A stretch of 64,000 nucleotides of DNA from an uncultured Clostridia bacterium (GTDB lineage: Bacteria; Bacillota; Clostridia; Christensenellales; Pumilibacteraceae): assembly GCA_947175335.1 (NCBI GenBank), contig CAMWMF010000004.1:62001-126000 (forward strand). Direction: 5' to 3'. Made by a program: the position numbers and the translations under genes. The notes below the pieces were generated by a model that was not told where the DNA came from, did not search any database, and saw nothing but the letters and a program-made list of their open reading frames with translations. This document shows positions 35,317-45,096 of the stretch, in pieces (within the stretch, counting starts at the first letter, position 1; the number at the start of each line of letters is the position of its first letter).

Positions 35317-38300
35317 TTAGTCATCCAAATCTTCTGCGGGCTTTTGAGCAGGCTTTTCGGGTTCTTGCTCGGCAGGTTGTTCGACGGGTTGCTCTGTTGC
35401 TTCGTCGTCCGTATGGGCTTCCGTTTCGGACTCGTCGCCGTTTTCGGGTTGCGGTACGGGAATTTCCTCGTACAGGTCCTCGTTATTGGCCTTTTTTGCT
35501 TTGACTGTATTTTTATTTTCAGTTTGCGCTCTGAGACGTTCGATATCGTCCATAACGTCGTTGCGGTCGTACTCGGTGGAGTAGGTGACCTTGCGCTTCT
35601 TTTTGAAGTGATCGCGAACACGTACAACCACAATCAGTATGACAACCGCGATCAACGCAATGCTAAATATTATTGTCGGGATAATCCACCACTGAATTTC
35701 GCTCGACGGCGCTTCTGTATTGGAGTTGTCGGTATCGGGATTAGTCTCGGAAAGCTCGACGGCTATTACCTGTGCGTCATTGGATTTTTGAGCGGTTTCG
35801 TAATCGAGGTTGTCGATTTCGGTCATTTCGATTGCGCCGACAATCAAACGGCCTTGGATATATCCTTCTTTTTGATCGCCGCCGAATGTGATGTCTAAGC
35901 CTATGCTTCCGCCGTTGTCGCCGGTAGAGATATAGAAGGAATAGGTCTTAAAGGTTTCGTAATCGCGGCTGTCTTCGTTATTCACGTCCGCAATGGTGGT
36001 GGTGTCCTTAATGTTGGTAAACGCTGCGGACGAACCTGTAAGCGTTATGCCTGCGCCGATAGAGGTTGTATCATTGCGCACTTCGTCGGTAACGCGTACT
36101 TTAATCTTAACGTCAATGCGATAATACTTGTTGGCGACAAGCGCAAGTGAATTGTCGTAGGTGTATTTGGTGCGGTTTTTGTCGGTGTTGTAAATATACA
36201 ACATATTGCCGGTCAAGCCGTCGGCCTTGAAGCCGGGATAAATTTCCAAGCCCTTTCTGTCGTCGACGTTAAACATACCGTACTCGACGCTGCTGTTGGC
36301 AGAGGACATTTTCCATTGATAGGGAACGCCGAAGCCATCGTCATTCGCATAGGAGTAGACGTCGTAGTAGTCGAGCGAAGGTGTTGCAAAGGAGTATATG
36401 CCGTAGTTAAGGCTGCCGTGTGTGGCGACAGTGTTTTTATATTCTTGGAGCTTGGCGTTAAACTCGTCGGCCACATTACCGTCGCCCTCGGCTTTCCATT
36501 CGTTAAGCGCGGCTTGCTTTACGTAAACGTAGCCGGACGAAAGCTTTTGCTTGTTGTCAGTTCTGTCGTTCAAGCCCAACCAAATTTCGAGATAAACGGT
36601 TTGGTCGGAAAGGGGAGCGGCAAGGTAGAAGGTGTACGTCCTAAACTGCCGTTTGGTATCGGTAATGTTTTCGATAGTGGAAACAACGTTTCCGTCGGTT
36701 GTTTTAAGGACGAGCGACGCGCCGTATCCATCTACCTGACCTACCATCATATCAACGGTAAGCTTGTTAGCTGTATCGGTAGAAAGTGTTATGGAAGGCG
36801 ATTGATAGCAAAACGCCGTTTTTGTGGGGGAAGAAAGCAACAATACGTTTTGATCGTCTGCATCCGGCCTTACCACGTAGGGGATGGCGCCGCTTGCCGC
36901 AATGGCGTTGAAAGTGTCGTAGTCGGTTGGTATAATGCCGTGTACAACGTCGTCGGTATTAACCGCGGAAGGGTTAAAGCCGGTTGTGTTGACGGCGTCG
37001 GTGGTAAGGTAATTCCAATCTGCAACGGGCATAGGGAACTTGATTTCGTCCATATCGCCGACGTTGACAAAGTTGCCGTTTACGATATTTGTGGAATTTT
37101 CGGTATCGTCTATGGTGAACACGTTGCCGCCGTCCGCTTCGGACATAGCGGTATAATCGGAATATTTAAGCTCGGTAAGCGTTACGTTATCGAACATTGC
37201 AATACCGGACGACTGCGCGTCGGGTGCACCCAACCAAAGCTCGAAGCTTACGTTGTAGTCATACAGCATAGAACCGTGGATATAGATTATTTGTTCCTTC
37301 CAGCCGTAGTGTGCCTTGTCGGAGCTGTCGCCGGTAAGGTTGGTGTATTCTTTGAGTAACGTCTCTTTTTCGGCGGTGGTGTTGTTTGTAGTGAGCTTGC
37401 CTTTAATGCGTACTGAAATACCGTTGCCGTCCTCGATGTTATCATCCTTTACCCAAACGGAGAAGCGGTAATACTTAAACCGTTCTATCTTGACAAAGGG
37501 GGAAGCGACGCCTGCCGCCGCCTTGGTAAACTCGTCGCCGTTGTACGTGCTGATGACCATGATATTGGCCTCGCGCGCGCCGGCAAAGAAAGGGGATTCC
37601 TTTTTTAAGAATTCCTTGCCTTCCGCTTTGCCGTAAGGCGCCCACGGATTTTGAGAAAAGCCGTAAACGTTGTTGGCGGAGTCAAGGTCTTTGATTATCA
37701 TTTCGGAATTGTAAACATCCTTGTGAGCGGTGCCGGCAAAGGTTGCGTTTTCGTCGTACGCGTCGTAGGGGACGTTTTTGGTATTCCATTCGGTAATGTT
37801 TTGGGAGAAGGTGCCTATTTCCTTGCCGTCCGTCGTGGTGAACGACTTGGTTTCGTTAAGGTCTATAGCCATCGAGGTGCCTTTGCCGTAAACATTGTCT
37901 TTGCCTGCAAGCTTTTCAAAGCTGAGCGTTTCCGCGGCAAAGTCGAACGCCGAAATGCGCTCGGCCTTGACGTCATCGAAAAATACGTAGCCATGCGCAG
38001 GACGCACTGACGTATCGGGGTCTTCATCGTCGCCTGTTACTGCGTCGCCCAAGCCCAAGCTGAGGCGTACCGTCTTGGACAGGGAAGCGGACGTGCGCAC
38101 GTAAAGAGAGTATTTGACCCAACCGTAATTGTTGGTCGCGTCAAGCTCGAGCTTGTTGTCGTCGTTGTAATTGTCTTTTACCGTGTCGATATTGTTAAAC
38201 GCAAAGTACTGGCCGAGACCGGTAAGCTTGACCGTTGCGCCCGTTTGCGCGGCAAAGCTACCCGTTTTTACCCACACCGAAAAGCGGTAGAAGGAGTTGG

Positions 38301-38778
38301 TGGCCAAAGTCATTTCTTCCGACTTGTATGCGTACGCAACGCTTCCGCCTTGCGCAGTGTTTATCATAAGCGTCTTTTTGTCGCCGCCGAATTCGGTACC
38401 CTCGCCGAATATGGATTTGGGGATATCGGTTTCTTTGGCGTACTCGGGGTACTGGTCAAGTTTATATTCCTTATTGCCGCCCGACGAGTATACGGACGGT
38501 GTAAGATCTACAACGCCGCTTACGGGCTTGTACTTGCCGCCGTCCACGTTTTCGCCCGACCACGAGCTGGGGTTGGCGGGGTAGCTACCCGACGACGAAC
38601 TGAACTGCGTATTGCTTAACGAGAGCGCGGTCGTCTCGAACTCTTTTGTGTCCTCCACTTCGTCGGCGTGCGCGGGGCGAATCGCCATAAATGTCGCGCC
38701 GAACAAAAGCGAAACCGCAATCAGGATTGACAGCAGTAAGGTTATCGATTTGTTTTTCAGTCTCTTGATAGTGTGCAT
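35317..38778 (-). CDS. Large surface protein with four carbohydrate-binding-like repeats
   Basis: A 1153-residue protein. Residues 1-38 are a signal peptide ending 'RPAHA'. The exterior part carries about four related beta-sandwich modules, each with a 'YYRFSVWVK' / 'KLTVDMMVG' / 'YYRIDVKIK' strand, then 'VKLTG' / 'VRIKG' / 'ITLTG', and a later 'VYLEIWLG' / 'SFELWLG' / 'LSLGLG' strand, as in CBM-type jelly rolls. One membrane span (about 1065-1088, 'WWIIPTIIFSIALIAVV') is followed by a basic stretch and a 60-residue acidic, Pro/Glu-rich cytoplasmic tail. No catalytic domain or sortase motif is seen. Probable adhesin or glycan-binding receptor; the tail may contact cytoplasmic partners. Confidence 0.75.
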   Translation of the reverse strand: MHTIKRLKNKSITLLLSILIAVSLLFGATFMAIRPAHADEVEDTKEFETTALSLSNTQFSSSSGSYPANPSSWSGENVDGGKYKPVSGVVDLTPSVYSSGGNKEYKLDQYPEYAKETDIPKSIFGEGTEFGGDKKTLMINTAQGGSVAYAYKSEEMTLATNSFYRFSVWVKTGSFAAQTGATVKLTGLGQYFAFNNIDTVKDNYNDDNKLELDATNNYGWVKYSLYVRTSASLSKTVRLSLGLGDAVTGDDEDPDTSVRPAHGYVFFDDVKAERISAFDFAAETLSFEKLAGKDNVYGKGTSMAIDLNETKSFTTTDGKEIGTFSQNITEWNTKNVPYDAYDENATFAGTAHKDVYNSEMIIKDLDSANNVYGFSQNPWAPYGKAEGKEFLKKESPFFAGAREANIMVISTYNGDEFTKAAAGVASPFVKIERFKYYRFSVWVKDDNIEDGNGISVRIKGKLTTNNTTAEKETLLKEYTNLTGDSSDKAHYGWKEQIIYIHGSMLYDYNVSFELWLGAPDAQSSGIAMFDNVTLTELKYSDYTAMSEADGGNVFTIDDTENSTNIVNGNFVNVGDMDEIKFPMPVADWNYLTTDAVNTTGFNPSAVNTDDVVHGIIPTDYDTFNAIAASGAIPYVVRPDADDQNVLLLSSPTKTAFCYQSPSITLSTDTANKLTVDMMVGQVDGYGASLVLKTTDGNVVSTIENITDTKRQFRTYTFYLAAPLSDQTVYLEIWLGLNDRTDNKQKLSSGYVYVKQAALNEWKAEGDGNVADEFNAKLQEYKNTVATHGSLNYGIYSFATPSLDYYDVYSYANDDGFGVPYQWKMSSANSSVEYGMFNVDDRKGLEIYPGFKADGLTGNMLYIYNTDKNRTKYTYDNSLALVANKYYRIDVKIKVRVTDEVRNDTTSIGAGITLTGSSAAFTNIKDTTTIADVNNEDSRDYETFKTYSFYISTGDNGGSIGLDITFGGDQKEGYIQGRLIVGAIEMTEIDNLDYETAQKSNDAQVIAVELSETNPDTDNSNTEAPSSEIQWWIIPTIIFSIALIAVVILIVVVRVRDHFKKKRKVTYSTEYDRNDVMDDIERLRAQTENKNTVKAKKANNEDLYEEIPVPQPENGDESETEAHTDDEATEQPVEQPAEQEPEKPAQKPAEDLDD

Positions 38779-38954: not shown

Positions 38955-39317
38955 ATGAACGGAAAGACAAAAACAATGCTCGTTTGCGGCGGCAGCGTCG
39001 CCGTCGGGCTGGTATCCGGATTTTTCGGCGGCGGGGGCGGAATGCTCGCCGTACCGCTGCTCGCACTGAGCGGACTGGATCAAAAACGCTCCCATGCCAC
39101 AGCACTGCTCGTAATTTTGCCGATATGCATAATAAGCGCTTCGATATACATTGCCGCAGGGTTCTTTGACGGACAAATCGTACTGTGCGCGTGCATCGGC
39201 GTAGTGCTGGGCGGAATAGTGGGCGCGGCGTTGCTCAACAAACTCAACCCCACGCTTATCGGCATAATGTTTGCGCTGATGATGATAGGCATTGGAATTA
39301 AGCTGGTGATAGTATGA
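38955..39317 (+). CDS. TauE/SafE-family transporter, first half-protein
   Basis: A 120-residue protein with about four membrane spans and the family hallmark 'GLVSGFFGGGGGMLAVPLL' near its start. Full TauE/SafE (TSUP) proteins are about 250 residues built from two such halves; this is only the first. The second is the next gene, overlapping by 4 bases, so the two should assemble as a heterodimer that exports a sulfur-containing or other organic anion. The ribosome site is weak. The substrate is unknown. Confidence 0.82.
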   Translation: MNGKTKTMLVCGGSVAVGLVSGFFGGGGGMLAVPLLALSGLDQKRSHATALLVILPICIISASIYIAAGFFDGQIVLCACIGVVLGGIVGAALLNKLNPTLIGIMFALMMIGIGIKLVIV

Positions 39318-39754
39318 CGGCACAACAGATTATAATAATCGTATCGTTTTTCGGCGGGATAATAGGCGGTATGGGTATGGGCGGAGGAACGCTGTTAATA
39401 CCGCTTTTGACGCTTGCGGCGGGATTAAGCCAACACCTTGCGCAAGCCGTCAACTTGATAGCGTTTATCCCTATGTCCGTCGTCGCGCTTGTTATACACA
39501 AAAAGAACGGATACGTAACCTTCGGCAAGACGGTGCATATTGTTGTGCTTGCGGCTATCGGGGCGGTGGGCGGAAGCTTTTTGGCAAAGTATTCGGGCGG
39601 TTATATTTTGCGCGCATGCTACGGTGCCTTTTTGATAGCTCTCGGCGTATTCCAATTAGGTAAAACAATTAAGACTGCCGTAGAAAACAAAAAAAGTCAA
39701 AATTCCCAATCAAAAAGAGGGCGGCTTATACCACCCTCAATTCCGAATTCCTAA
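39314..39754 (+). CDS. TauE/SafE-family transporter, second half-protein
   Basis: A 146-residue partner of the preceding half-transporter. 'FFGGIIGGMGMGGGTLLIPLL' repeats the Gly-rich hallmark, followed by three further spans. The last 20 residues ('SQSKRGRLIPPSIPNS') are polar and are encoded by the arm of a terminator-like hairpin and the first bases of a heptamer repeat, so the repeat supplies the stop codon. This suggests that a repeat insertion changed the original C-terminus. Confidence 0.82.
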   Translation: MTAQQIIIIVSFFGGIIGGMGMGGGTLLIPLLTLAAGLSQHLAQAVNLIAFIPMSVVALVIHKKNGYVTFGKTVHIVVLAAIGAVGGSFLAKYSGGYILRACYGAFLIALGVFQLGKTIKTAVENKKSQNSQSKRGRLIPPSIPNS

Positions 39755-41165: not shown

Positions 41166-41195
41166 ATTATATAAAGGCAAACTGTGCTTTGTCAA
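41166..41195 (-). promoter_or_regulatory. gdhA promoter
   Basis: Minus-strand TTGACA, 18 bases, TATAAT, about 64 bases before the ATG. Confidence 0.78.
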
Positions 41196-41290
41196 GTATT
41201 TTAATCGAATATTTTTATCTTATAGCCACAAGTAGGGCGTTTTGTCAATATAAAATATATCCATTCTACGTTTCGGTTAGTCGTTTCATA

Positions 41291-41319
41291 TTTACAAATC
41301 AGTCGATTTATTGTATACT
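41291..41319 (+). promoter_or_regulatory. Promoter of the XRE-InlB-GLUG gene
   Basis: TTTACA, 17 bases, TATACT, with GGGAG before the ATG at 41350. Confidence 0.72.
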
Positions 41320-41336
41320 GAAACCACAATAAATCG
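41304..41336. promoter_or_regulatory. Candidate autoregulatory operator
   Basis: CGATTTATTGT and ACAATAAATCG form a perfect 11-bp inverted repeat with an 11-base spacer that spans the -10 box and start site. It is the natural target for the XRE domain encoded just downstream. Confidence 0.6.
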
Positions 41337-41349
41337 ATAGGGAGTACGT

Positions 41350-44300
41350 ATGCGGGATTACGGTGGGGCTTTGCGAAAGCTCCGAAAACACTATGATTAT
41401 ACGCAACGGCAAATTGCAGACAAACTAAACGTTTCGTATCAAGCCGTCAGTAAATGGGAAAACGGTACTAACCAAATAGATATTGACACTATGCGAAGGT
41501 TGTGTAGCGTTTTCGACTTAACTTCGGACGACTTTATGCGCATTGCCGACGGTGTAGAGGTAAGCATGGTGCTCAAAACCGCAGTGCGGCAACAATCGGA
41601 ACCGACGCCTAATACCGAGCGCGAATCGGTGATTTTGCCGGAGTCTAAGCCTATGTCGGAGTCTGTGCCTGAACCGAAACCGACGCATGAGCCTACGCAT
41701 GTTGCGCATGCGGACGACAAATGTATAGAAGTCGCGGCGCCGCCTACAAAAAAGAATATGGAAACGATACCCGCAATACTTGCATTGTGCTTGTTTGCGG
41801 TAATAGTTATATTCACTATCGTGACGTGCGTTACGTTTATTCCGCGCCGAAAAAGCGTGTTGCCAAAGACGGTAAGCGTAAAGCTTATGGACGGCGATAA
41901 AGTGTTTTGGCAAAAAGAACTGCCGTTCGGCGCCACGATTACGGTGCCGAGCACAGATAAGGACGGATATAAGTTTGACGGCTGGTATGCCGACGTTGAA
42001 TTGAGTACGGCCAAACCTTTGCCGACTACCGCCTATGCGGATATTACGCTGTACGGCAAATGGAGAATTAGCAATTCGTATACGATACGATTTATAGATT
42101 ATTATGGGCGGAGCACAATGCCCGATTTGACGGTTAAAATAGGTGAATCGGTCAAACTGCCTAAATCTACGTACAAGAATTCGGACGGCAAGCAGATGCT
42201 GTATTGGCGCACGAGCACCGGAGCTACGTACGAGGACGGCGACGTAGTTAAAGACCTTGCAAAGCGCGACGGCGACGTAGTTAAGCTTACGGCAAGCTGG
42301 GACGCTATTTGCGTGTTACTTACTTACGACGGCAACGGCGGCGTCAGTTATTATCATGACGACGATAGCATTGAGTTCTATTCCGACAGTCAAATCAAGA
42401 TTGATAGCACCGGCTGGCACAAAATGGGTTATACGCTTGCCGGGTGGACGATTGACGGCAAGCTTTATAAGAATGGCGATTGGTATACTTCCGGCACGCA
42501 CTGCGTTGCAAATAAAACCGCGGTTGCCGTTTGGGCGCCTAATACGTACAATATTTCTTACAAGTGTTATTTTTATGATATCAATGGAAATATGGCGTGG
42601 CACAGCGAATGTAAGCACAAGCTAAAAACCGAGGAATTTGTGTATGACGAATCGGGCTATGTCGTTTACAATCCGTATGCAACCGAACATCTCGGCTACG
42701 AGTTGGGCGATATTTCCGGAATGAAAGTCGGCGAAGAGTATGAATTGGATATGCCGATGACGATTGATTTTAGGGTGAATTGGTATCCGAAATCATACGA
42801 TAACGTTACCATTGAGATAGAAAACGACGAAGGAATGCAAACGTACAAAAACGTTTATTCTTGGGTTTATGCTACGGACATAGAAGAAGAAGTACGCAAT
42901 CTTATCGGGAACGAAATACAAAAGAAATCGGGACATACCGTAGACGAATGCACCGTGTACTTAAACGGTGAGGAATACGACGGTGATTATAAATATATTA
43001 CGACCGATGAGGACGACGAAATACGAATATGCTTTACGCAAACAATGAATTCGTATGACCTTACGTTAAGCGGGTATTACGATAACAGCGGCATAGGCGC
43101 AAAAATCATAGATGAAGCAACATTGCAGTATGACGAGGAGTACACGTTGCCGACACCTCCGGCGCGCGTCGGATATAAGTTTGACGGCTGGAAAATAGGC
43201 GACGAGCTGTATGAAGCAGGCACTGTTGTAAGTAAGCTTGCGGAATACGGCAGTATAAACGTAACGATACAGTGGACGGCTATACAATACGGCATAACGT
43301 TTGACGTGGACGGCGACGCCGAGCTTGTTACTCCGCAAATCGTAAAATACGACGAAAAGTTTAAAATGCCAAAGTGTCCTATAAGCAAAAGCGACTACGT
43401 TTTTATGGGCTGGGAATGTAACGACAAGGCGTATCCGGCCGATTTGCAAGTAAGCAATATCACCGTTGTAGACAACGCTTTGCTTACGTTTACGGCTAAG
43501 TGGTGTGAGCCATATAAAGGGCGCGGCACGGAAGAATCGCCATATAGAGTTGATTCGTACGAGCAATTGTTCAACTTATATTTATTTGCTATGCAAGGCA
43601 CGAATAACAAAGCATATTACCGACTAACTGCCGACGTAGATTGCGAAAACAAATCTTTGTATCCGATAGACGGTTTTAGCGGCGTGTTCGACGGAGATTT
43701 CCATACGGTTTCCAATGCAAAGCTAAATGCCGGGTATTTTGATTCGACTGCCAATATGGTGGGATTGTTCGGCTCAATGTACGGCACGGTAAAGAATATC
43801 GGTATAGATAATTACAGCATAAACGCAACGAATTGCAAATACGTAGGCGCATTGGCGGCAATGGTTAGCGGCAAAGGCGTTGTATCGCAAGTGTGGACGA
43901 GCGGCAACATCGTGGTTAAATCGAACGGATATTGTTACTTTGGCGGACTTATAGGAGAGTTTTCCGGCGGGACGGCTACAAACTGCTATTCCGACGGAAC
44001 TATGGCTGTTACAGCCGTTACCGACGAGTTTTGCAAGTTTTGTGTAGGTGGGTTAGTCGGTAGCCTCGGGTTTACGTCGTCGTTTACAAAATCTATGGCA
44101 ACTGTCGAACACTGCTATGCTAACGTAAAAATAGATATAAACGCCGACGGAGCGGACGTTGCCGGATTGGTAGGCGCAGTGGACTACGGCACTGTAAACA
44201 GCTCGTTTGTAATGGGCAGTATAACCGCTGTGGGTGAATCGTTCTATGCGGAATGGGGACAAATGTTGTATCCAAGAAGTAGTGTGTTTACCGACGGATT

Positions 44301-44502
44301 TGTGTACGCGTGCGACGGTTATACCGTAGTTGCCAATAATCAAACCGTCGCCCCTTCGTCAAGCGTAAAACGCACGGCGCTCAGTAATTTGTGCTCGGCG
44401 CAATGGATAGAAAGCAACTTGGAGTTTGATACCGATTCGGTTTGGAAGGTTATAGACGAGTTGCCTAAGCTTGCTGGATTTCAAAAAGGAGATAATGTGT
44501 AA
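41350..44502 (+). CDS. XRE-family HTH fused through a membrane span to InlB-type and GLUG repeats
   Basis: A 1050-residue protein with an unusual layout. Residues 1-67 are a Cro/C1 helix-turn-helix ('YTQRQIADKLNVSYQAVSKW'). A Pro/Glu-rich linker (about 80-130) leads to one membrane span (about 141-163). The exterior part carries about five Listeria-Bacteroides (InlB B-type) repeats, e.g. 'GYKFDGWYAD'...'ITLYGKW', 'GYKFDGWKIG' and 'YVFMGWECND', followed by GLUG-type repeats ('MVGLFGSMYGTVKNIGI', 'YFGGLIGEFSGG', 'CVGGLVGSLG'). The order implies a DNA-binding head inside and an adhesin-like sensor outside. The stop overlaps the next ATG by one base. The family parts are clear; the signalling idea is inference. 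Confidence 0.82.
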   Translation: MRDYGGALRKLRKHYDYTQRQIADKLNVSYQAVSKWENGTNQIDIDTMRRLCSVFDLTSDDFMRIADGVEVSMVLKTAVRQQSEPTPNTERESVILPESKPMSESVPEPKPTHEPTHVAHADDKCIEVAAPPTKKNMETIPAILALCLFAVIVIFTIVTCVTFIPRRKSVLPKTVSVKLMDGDKVFWQKELPFGATITVPSTDKDGYKFDGWYADVELSTAKPLPTTAYADITLYGKWRISNSYTIRFIDYYGRSTMPDLTVKIGESVKLPKSTYKNSDGKQMLYWRTSTGATYEDGDVVKDLAKRDGDVVKLTASWDAICVLLTYDGNGGVSYYHDDDSIEFYSDSQIKIDSTGWHKMGYTLAGWTIDGKLYKNGDWYTSGTHCVANKTAVAVWAPNTYNISYKCYFYDINGNMAWHSECKHKLKTEEFVYDESGYVVYNPYATEHLGYELGDISGMKVGEEYELDMPMTIDFRVNWYPKSYDNVTIEIENDEGMQTYKNVYSWVYATDIEEEVRNLIGNEIQKKSGHTVDECTVYLNGEEYDGDYKYITTDEDDEIRICFTQTMNSYDLTLSGYYDNSGIGAKIIDEATLQYDEEYTLPTPPARVGYKFDGWKIGDELYEAGTVVSKLAEYGSINVTIQWTAIQYGITFDVDGDAELVTPQIVKYDEKFKMPKCPISKSDYVFMGWECNDKAYPADLQVSNITVVDNALLTFTAKWCEPYKGRGTEESPYRVDSYEQLFNLYLFAMQGTNNKAYYRLTADVDCENKSLYPIDGFSGVFDGDFHTVSNAKLNAGYFDSTANMVGLFGSMYGTVKNIGIDNYSINATNCKYVGALAAMVSGKGVVSQVWTSGNIVVKSNGYCYFGGLIGEFSGGTATNCYSDGTMAVTAVTDEFCKFCVGGLVGSLGFTSSFTKSMATVEHCYANVKIDINADGADVAGLVGAVDYGTVNSSFVMGSITAVGESFYAEWGQMLYPRSSVFTDGFVYACDGYTVVANNQTVAPSSSVKRTALSNLCSAQWIESNLEFDTDSVWKVIDELPKLAGFQKGDNV

Positions 44503-44966
44503 TGACCGAAACGATTAATAGTGAGTCGACTAAAAATATAGATCTCGTTTATACAGAAAGTTTTTGGACCGGTAGGCGACAACTGCGTTACGGCGAAATT
44601 GAGCTTACCCGCAAAAGTAACAAAAAGTTTGTAGGCGAAACTGACGGTGGGGAAGTAGAGTTTAGCGTGCATGGCAATAGGTTTAAAGGCATTTACGTCG
44701 AATCCGCGACGTTGCAAGGCCCTGTTTGCGTCGTGCGAAAGTTGACTGTGCTCGAATACATTTTGGCTGTATTGGTGCTGGTGCCCGCGCTTATTTTCGG
44801 CGCGGTCGGCGGGGCCGTGGGTGGTGTAATAGCTTGCGTCAACCTTTACGTAATGCCGAAAATCGAAACGCTGTGGCTTAAAATTACCGTAGCGTTGGAG
44901 TTTACGGCAGTGTCGGGATTTACCGCGTTTTGGATTGCGTATGCCTTTGGAACGTTATTTTGGTAG
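44502..44966 (+). CDS. Two-span membrane protein, unknown
   Basis: A 154-residue protein translationally coupled to the XRE-InlB-GLUG gene. The first 80 residues are polar with a beta-strand rhythm ('LRYGEIELTRKSNKKFVGET', 'VEFSVHGNRFKGIYV'); two spans follow (about 85-112 and 125-150), the first Gly-rich. No family is recognised. The one-base overlap suggests that the two proteins act together. Confidence 0.6.
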   Translation: MTETINSESTKNIDLVYTESFWTGRRQLRYGEIELTRKSNKKFVGETDGGEVEFSVHGNRFKGIYVESATLQGPVCVVRKLTVLEYILAVLVLVPALIFGAVGGAVGGVIACVNLYVMPKIETLWLKITVALEFTAVSGFTAFWIAYAFGTLFW

Positions 44967-45096
44967 TTAAAATCAAACGACTAAATTGTGTGTGCCAATA
45001 AGTATGCGCAGTGTATGCTTTGTGTTTTTATCGTATTTGGACGTATGATTTAATGTTAAAATCGTATGATTGTGACTATTATATTGCAAATAAGGA

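Follow-up and report, generated by a model that had tools for sequence, protein, structure and literature searches.

A probable transmembrane regulator with an adhesin-like exterior

The window, a 64,000-nucleotide stretch of DNA, carries a gene (41350–44502, forward strand) whose single intact frame runs from ATG to TAA and encodes a 1050-residue protein with an XRE-type helix–turn–helix (HTH) head, one transmembrane (TM) helix and a long exterior of surface-protein repeats. We consider that this protein is probably a single-pass transmembrane one-component regulator, which would repress its own two-gene operon through an inverted repeat and be relieved of repression at its exterior. Within one bacterial order, at least six kinds of exterior are found attached to this HTH–TM module. 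The source of the window (G000:C4:62001–126000) is a 1.96-Mb draft genome in 52 contigs, 94% complete, whose gene content suggests a member of gut-type lineages of the Bacillota. The features on which the argument draws are as follows.

41174–45079, no strand: insertion of about 3.9 kb between gdhA and degV, holding both genes and the promoter (limits from the closest sister genome, G012)
41291–41319, forward strand: sigma-70-like promoter TTTACA-N17-TATACT (consensus scan, 10 of 12 matches, a level frequent by chance)
41303–41337, no strand: operator-like perfect inverted repeat with 12-bp arms at 41303–41314 and 41326–41337, bracketing the −10 box and the predicted start site
41350–44502, forward strand: predicted membrane regulator, 1050 aa, HTH–linker–TM–InlB repeats–GLUG-like β-helix (Pfam, hydropathy, AlphaFold2)
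41371–41535, forward strand: HTH_3 (Cro/C1, XRE) DNA-binding domain, residues 8–62 (Pfam E 4e-14, above cut-off)
41587–41766, forward strand: Pro/Glu-rich linker, residues 80–139 (sequence; pLDDT below 50 in the model)
41776–41832, forward strand: single TM helix, residues 143–161 (hydropathy 3.11; model helix 140–163)
41857–43509, forward strand: InlB-type (Flg_new) β-grasp repeats, residues ~170–720, part divergent (Pfam E 3e-23)
43513–44229, forward strand: GLUG-like β-helix, residues ~722–960 (sub-threshold Glug; confident strands; Foldseek)
44502–44966, forward strand: co-inserted 154-aa membrane protein, small β domain and 2–3 TM helices (one-base overlap with the regulator)

AlphaFold2 models the HTH fold with confidence (block pLDDT 84–95), Foldseek matches the model to C.BclI, ClgR and P22 c2, and the top phmmer match of the domain in the PDB is the ImmR HTH. 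Residues R12, K13, Q19, S34, W36, E37 and G39, which occupy DNA-contact positions, are invariant in eight members of the class described below. Hydropathy finds no hydrophobic span in the protein other than residues 143–161, and beyond it lies a predicted extracytoplasmic part of about 885 residues. Four stretches of this exterior match Flg_new/InlB above the Pfam cut-off (82 bits), and NCBIfam TIGR02543 scores 38.8 bits against a cut-off of 20.95, marking the exterior as that of an InlB B-repeat protein. The Glug match is weak (E 0.006, 17.3 bits against a Pfam cut-off of 20.5). Overall pLDDT is 58, with the linker and several repeats poorly modelled; InlB β-grasp pieces are recovered, together with a confident β-rich rod or β-helix at residues ~720–960. 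As Glug falls below its cut-off while the model has a β-helix-like fold, we use the term GLUG-like. The preliminary description had proposed, from the letters of the DNA, one polypeptide with an HTH, a Pro-rich linker, one membrane span and 850 extracellular residues of InlB and GLUG adhesin repeats; the intact frame, Pfam, hydropathy and AlphaFold2 confirm this layout, the length is close to ours and the InlB assignment holds, while GLUG is reduced to a GLUG-like β-helix.

Foldseek aligns the modelled exterior with IgA1-protease-type proteins (3n6z, 7uvk, 6xjb); these matches inform on shape and say nothing of what is bound. A sequence search of the PDB with the exterior gave no match. Within its own genome nothing else matches the GLUG-like part significantly, and no secreted homologue of the exterior adjoins the regulator. 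A genome-contig search with the whole protein returned just one unrelated XRE protein and no close relative in a named organism. Elsewhere in the same genome, contigs G000:C24 and G000:C6 hold InlB-repeat open frames of more than 3000 codons, giant surface proteins.

Recurrence of the HTH–TM head with different exteriors

A search for other HTH–TM–InlB/GLUG proteins had been proposed as a check, and it succeeds. Genome G008, of the same genus, encodes a co-linear 1179-aa homologue with the same architecture: an HTH of 54% identity, a Pro-rich linker, one TM helix, InlB repeats and a GLUG-like end. After the TM helix this protein has an extra Trypsin_2/HtrA-like domain, in which the catalytic motifs TNFHVV, DVALI and GNSGG are all three present. 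Besides this homologue we find at least eight other proteins built of an HTH, one TM helix and an ectodomain, spread over three families of the order (f1, f11 and f17). Their exteriors combine InlB with BspA leucine-rich repeats (two members in G050), InlB with RCC1 (one in G038), or, in a tandem pair in G076, are cadherin-like and Flg_new_2 plus LRR; the G013 member has two HTHs and a GLUG-like exterior, that of G168 an internalin-like LRR exterior, and that of G347 an exterior without an assigned family. Such reuse of one head points to a class of sensors assembled from the parts of surface proteins. The XRE–TM protein at L045:6990–10529, whose exterior includes an HtrA-like serine protease domain that keeps its catalytic motifs, is a possible protease–regulator fusion.

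Wider searches give a sparser picture. In a phylum-wide sample, among the matches listed, which are those with the best HTH scores and not a census, no frame other than the window regulator exceeds 550 aa; of four frames read from these matches, one has a single TM helix, with an exterior of about 390 aa. Among the matches listed from plasmid records, InlB or GLUG proteins are annotated separately and none covers the HTH. A literature search, its coverage leaving out most subscription journals, found no paper naming both Flg_new and HTH_3. Many long HTH frames were set aside as multi-TM or soluble proteins. Two other kinds of XRE protein deserve mention: soluble 520–620-aa proteins, conserved across genomes of the order (L162, L163, L168 and L170), in which the HTH precedes long repeats that look helical, and a 406-aa protein at L175:749–1969 in which, by sequence only, an XRE HTH is apparently fused to a PfkB-type sugar kinase.

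A two-gene insertion between gdhA and degV

Comparison of the window by blastn with the gdhA–degV region of its sisters finds the two genes adjacent in all six genomes. In the closest sister, G012, the flanks are 95–96% identical and about 120 bp separate the aligned blocks, compared with 3.9 kb here. The insert has 45% G+C against 50–54% in the flanking genes, and no transposase or integrase open frame was seen within it. Gain in the lineage of the window is a simpler reading than loss in six sisters, and the two genes appear to have been inserted recently as a unit.

The second gene of the unit shares one base with the end of the regulator gene, within the sequence TAATG. Its product has no Pfam match, and its model gave no significant fold match in Foldseek, with a weak, non-significant likeness to the FAIM N-terminal domain. 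The family is present in 16 of 76 genomes and outside the window is a stand-alone gene. The coupled two-span protein of the preliminary description is thus upheld as regards the one-base overlap, the joint insertion and the two to three TM helices, and less so as regards coupling, given the stand-alone life of the family elsewhere. A role as dedicated partner is weakened in particular by the homologues in 15 other genomes, which are not beside such regulators at the loci whose flanks were read. The family is unannotated and is recognisable by an E-x-x-W-T-G-K/R motif, a small β domain and TM helices containing GGAIGG (loci L101–L111).

Two further observations concern other parts of the window. 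Positions 38955–39754 hold two overlapping short frames of 120 and 146 aa, the first corresponding to the C-terminal half of TauE/SafE and the second similar by eye, a possible half-transporter pair. At 35317–38778 lies a gene for a 1153-aa surface protein with an N-terminal signal, a C-terminal TM helix and an acidic tail, with no significant Pfam family.

Orientation in the membrane and a candidate operator

Nine of ten class members have more Lys/Arg on the N-terminal side of the TM helix, and the sole exception is the window regulator, whose two Lys/Arg before and four after the helix are opposite to the positive-inside rule for an HTH inside the cell. Proteins of the same genus and family that are related to the exterior carry N-terminal signal peptides and are secreted. 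Because these relatives are secreted and the other nine members obey the rule, a single-pass protein with the HTH inside and the repeats outside is the best reading, one that we infer from sequence. The preliminary description had suggested that the protein would be a one-component transmembrane regulator acting directly on DNA; the kept DNA-binding residues, the secreted relatives, the nine other members and the operator-like repeat favour that view, and the protein's own TM flanks speak against it.

The operator-like repeat, TCGATTTATTGT-N11-ACAATAAATCGA, did not figure in the preliminary description. It occurs once in the genome even with up to three mismatches allowed, and an equally good repeat arose in 32 of 20,000 dinucleotide shuffles of the intergenic region. 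Single arms, with one mismatch allowed, have 19 matches genome-wide, of which the repeat accounts for two, compared with 6 for a reversed control. Across the whole genome, then, the full repeat is one site, single arms are little above background and no regulon is visible. An RNA hairpin is unlikely, as from the predicted start site the right arm alone would be transcribed. Being perfect, unique and placed around the −10 box and start site of the gene's own promoter, the repeat makes an autoregulating transmembrane transcription regulator the best reading. A comparable arrangement exists in G013, where a perfect 20-bp palindrome, unique in its genome, lies 35 bp upstream of the adhesin–regulator operon. 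Upstream of most other class members no palindrome is better than chance or of comparable strength, and palindrome-based autoregulation is therefore not general to the class.

These data also bear on an alternative that we regard as unlikely, in which the protein is an adhesin or surface rod and the HTH, no longer regulatory, anchors it in the cytoplasm or binds other proteins there. The exterior is far larger than the regulator part and its relatives are secreted surface proteins, and membrane HTH proteins that bind protein instead of DNA are known: the HTH of RodZ binds the protein MreB. However, the head matches HTH_3 and not the HTH_25 of RodZ, and neither HTH_25 nor the DUF4115 exterior of RodZ is among the Pfam matches of the regulator with E values up to 1. 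Invariant DNA-contact positions across the class, a unique perfect inverted repeat on the promoter and a class member with two tandem HTHs likewise argue against a mere anchor.

A model for regulation from outside the cell

For the preferred reading, autoregulation by a transmembrane regulator, we envisage the following sequence of events. The cytoplasmic HTH, in dimeric or higher oligomeric form, would bind the repeat straddling its own −10 box and start site, so that at rest the two-gene operon would be repressed. Through a flexible linker and the TM helix this head would connect to an extracytoplasmic rod of InlB repeats ending in the GLUG-like β-helix; occupancy of the rod, tension on it or its proteolysis may alter the oligomeric state of the HTH or release it from the membrane, and the operon would then be expressed. 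The small co-translated membrane protein could have a modulating role like that of ToxS or TcpH. More generally, the HTH–TM module would be an adaptor repeatedly fused to surface-protein exteriors. The domain layout, its recurrence in other genomes, the two-gene insertion and the unique repeat are observed; topology, DNA binding, repression and signalling are predicted parts of this scheme, and surface contact or a host glycan, the stimulus first proposed, is a fair guess and no more.

Regulated proteolysis offers a different and rather improbable route, whereby shedding or cleavage of the exterior would lead to intramembrane cleavage and a soluble HTH would act at distant promoters. The architecture parallels that of RsgI anti-sigma factors (PMC12203970) and the G008 sister protein has an HtrA-like protease in its exterior, but no autocleavage domain is recognised in the 1050 residues and the only strong operator candidate lies at the regulator's own promoter. 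That an XRE gene and an adhesin gene were merely joined by chance or in the assembly, with no joint function, is very improbable: the genome is a 52-contig draft and the gene is missing at the gdhA–degV site in sisters, but a co-linear homologue exists in a separate genome alongside the other members of the class, the 1050 codons run without interruption and both flanks align cleanly with sisters. A sequencing join of two genes, raised in the preliminary description, is excluded by the co-linear homologues in separate genomes and the clean sister-genome synteny.

Secreted twins beside some regulators

Three class members lie beside a gene for a secreted version of their own exterior. In G013 the regulator gene lies 12 bp downstream of a gene for a 1163-aa protein that has a lipobox, InlB repeats and a GLUG-like part; the last of these is similar to the exterior of the regulator (E 3e-24), and the genome contains no copy besides these two. 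In G168 a 1606-aa secreted LRR protein, encoded 70 bp downstream of the regulator, matches its exterior (E 1.6e-29) and is one of four such genes there. Next to the G347 regulator lies a gene for the same exterior (49% identical over 392 aa, E 1.6e-128); the lipoprotein signal in front of it is in another reading frame in the assembly. For loci that are not a random sample, twins at three of about ten appear to be more than expected from gene order alone. We tentatively raise the idea, well short of probable, that such sensors mirror themselves: an XRE–TM adaptor would carry an exterior copied from the surface protein that it controls, and the tethered twin would read what the adhesins meet and adjust their production, and the protein at 41350–44502 would stand alone, governing itself and its small membrane partner. 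Two of these neighbourhoods merit separate note: at L179:3955–5430 a membrane regulator with tandem XRE HTHs lies 12 bp after a lipoprotein-type InlB/GLUG-like gene, and at L178:6900–7300 a lipoprotein signal peptide is out of frame with the next open frame, through an assembly error or a broken gene.

Relation to known systems

BcrR carries an N-terminal XRE-like HTH and several TM helices. It is the membrane-bound one-component bacitracin regulator of Enterococcus faecalis, which controls a promoter directly in a Gram-positive bacterium and has no obvious extracellular domain (PMC3968067). The missing exterior and the several TM helices set it apart from the window regulator. The many short HTH–multi-TM proteins of the same genome and order are closer to BcrR than the window regulator is. 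Transmembrane transcription regulators (TTRs) such as ToxR, TcpP and CadC are most commonly single-pass, with the HTH the commonest DNA-binding domain in a census (PMC10269533). Like the window regulator, TTRs hold a DNA-binding domain and at least one TM helix in one polypeptide; here these are an HTH_3 domain above the cut-off, with fold and DNA-contact residues kept, and a helix found by both hydropathy and the model. For both ToxR and TcpP, the gene that follows codes for a small membrane partner (ToxS, TcpH), and in the window, too, a small membrane gene follows that of the regulator. Whereas ToxR, TcpP and CadC use a winged helix, the window regulator has an XRE-type HTH and an adhesin-type exterior of some 885 residues.

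In the RsgI anti-sigma-I factors of Clostridium thermocellum, stepwise proteolysis is driven by variable sensor domains (CBM, GH, peptidase-like); the modular scheme is the same, with a sigma factor as output and proteolysis as the signalling route (PMC12203970). The target of RsgI is a sigma factor, not DNA, and neither its N-terminal anti-sigma-I domain nor its periplasmic autocleavage domain has a Pfam or NCBIfam match in the window regulator, whose N terminus is HTH_3. Surface proteins with InlB B-repeats or GLUG domains have exteriors like that of the regulator, but are secreted or surface-bound and lack an HTH.

Transmembrane regulators are common, yet the route from outside stimulus to DNA is poorly understood, and BcrR offers no obvious exterior to study. 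With a candidate operator, multiple exteriors and three secreted twins, signal transfer and ligand identity become testable by domain swap, and regulation is tied to the many unexplained surface repeat proteins of uncultured bacteria. As predicted here, the regulator is of the TTR type, a kind already known.
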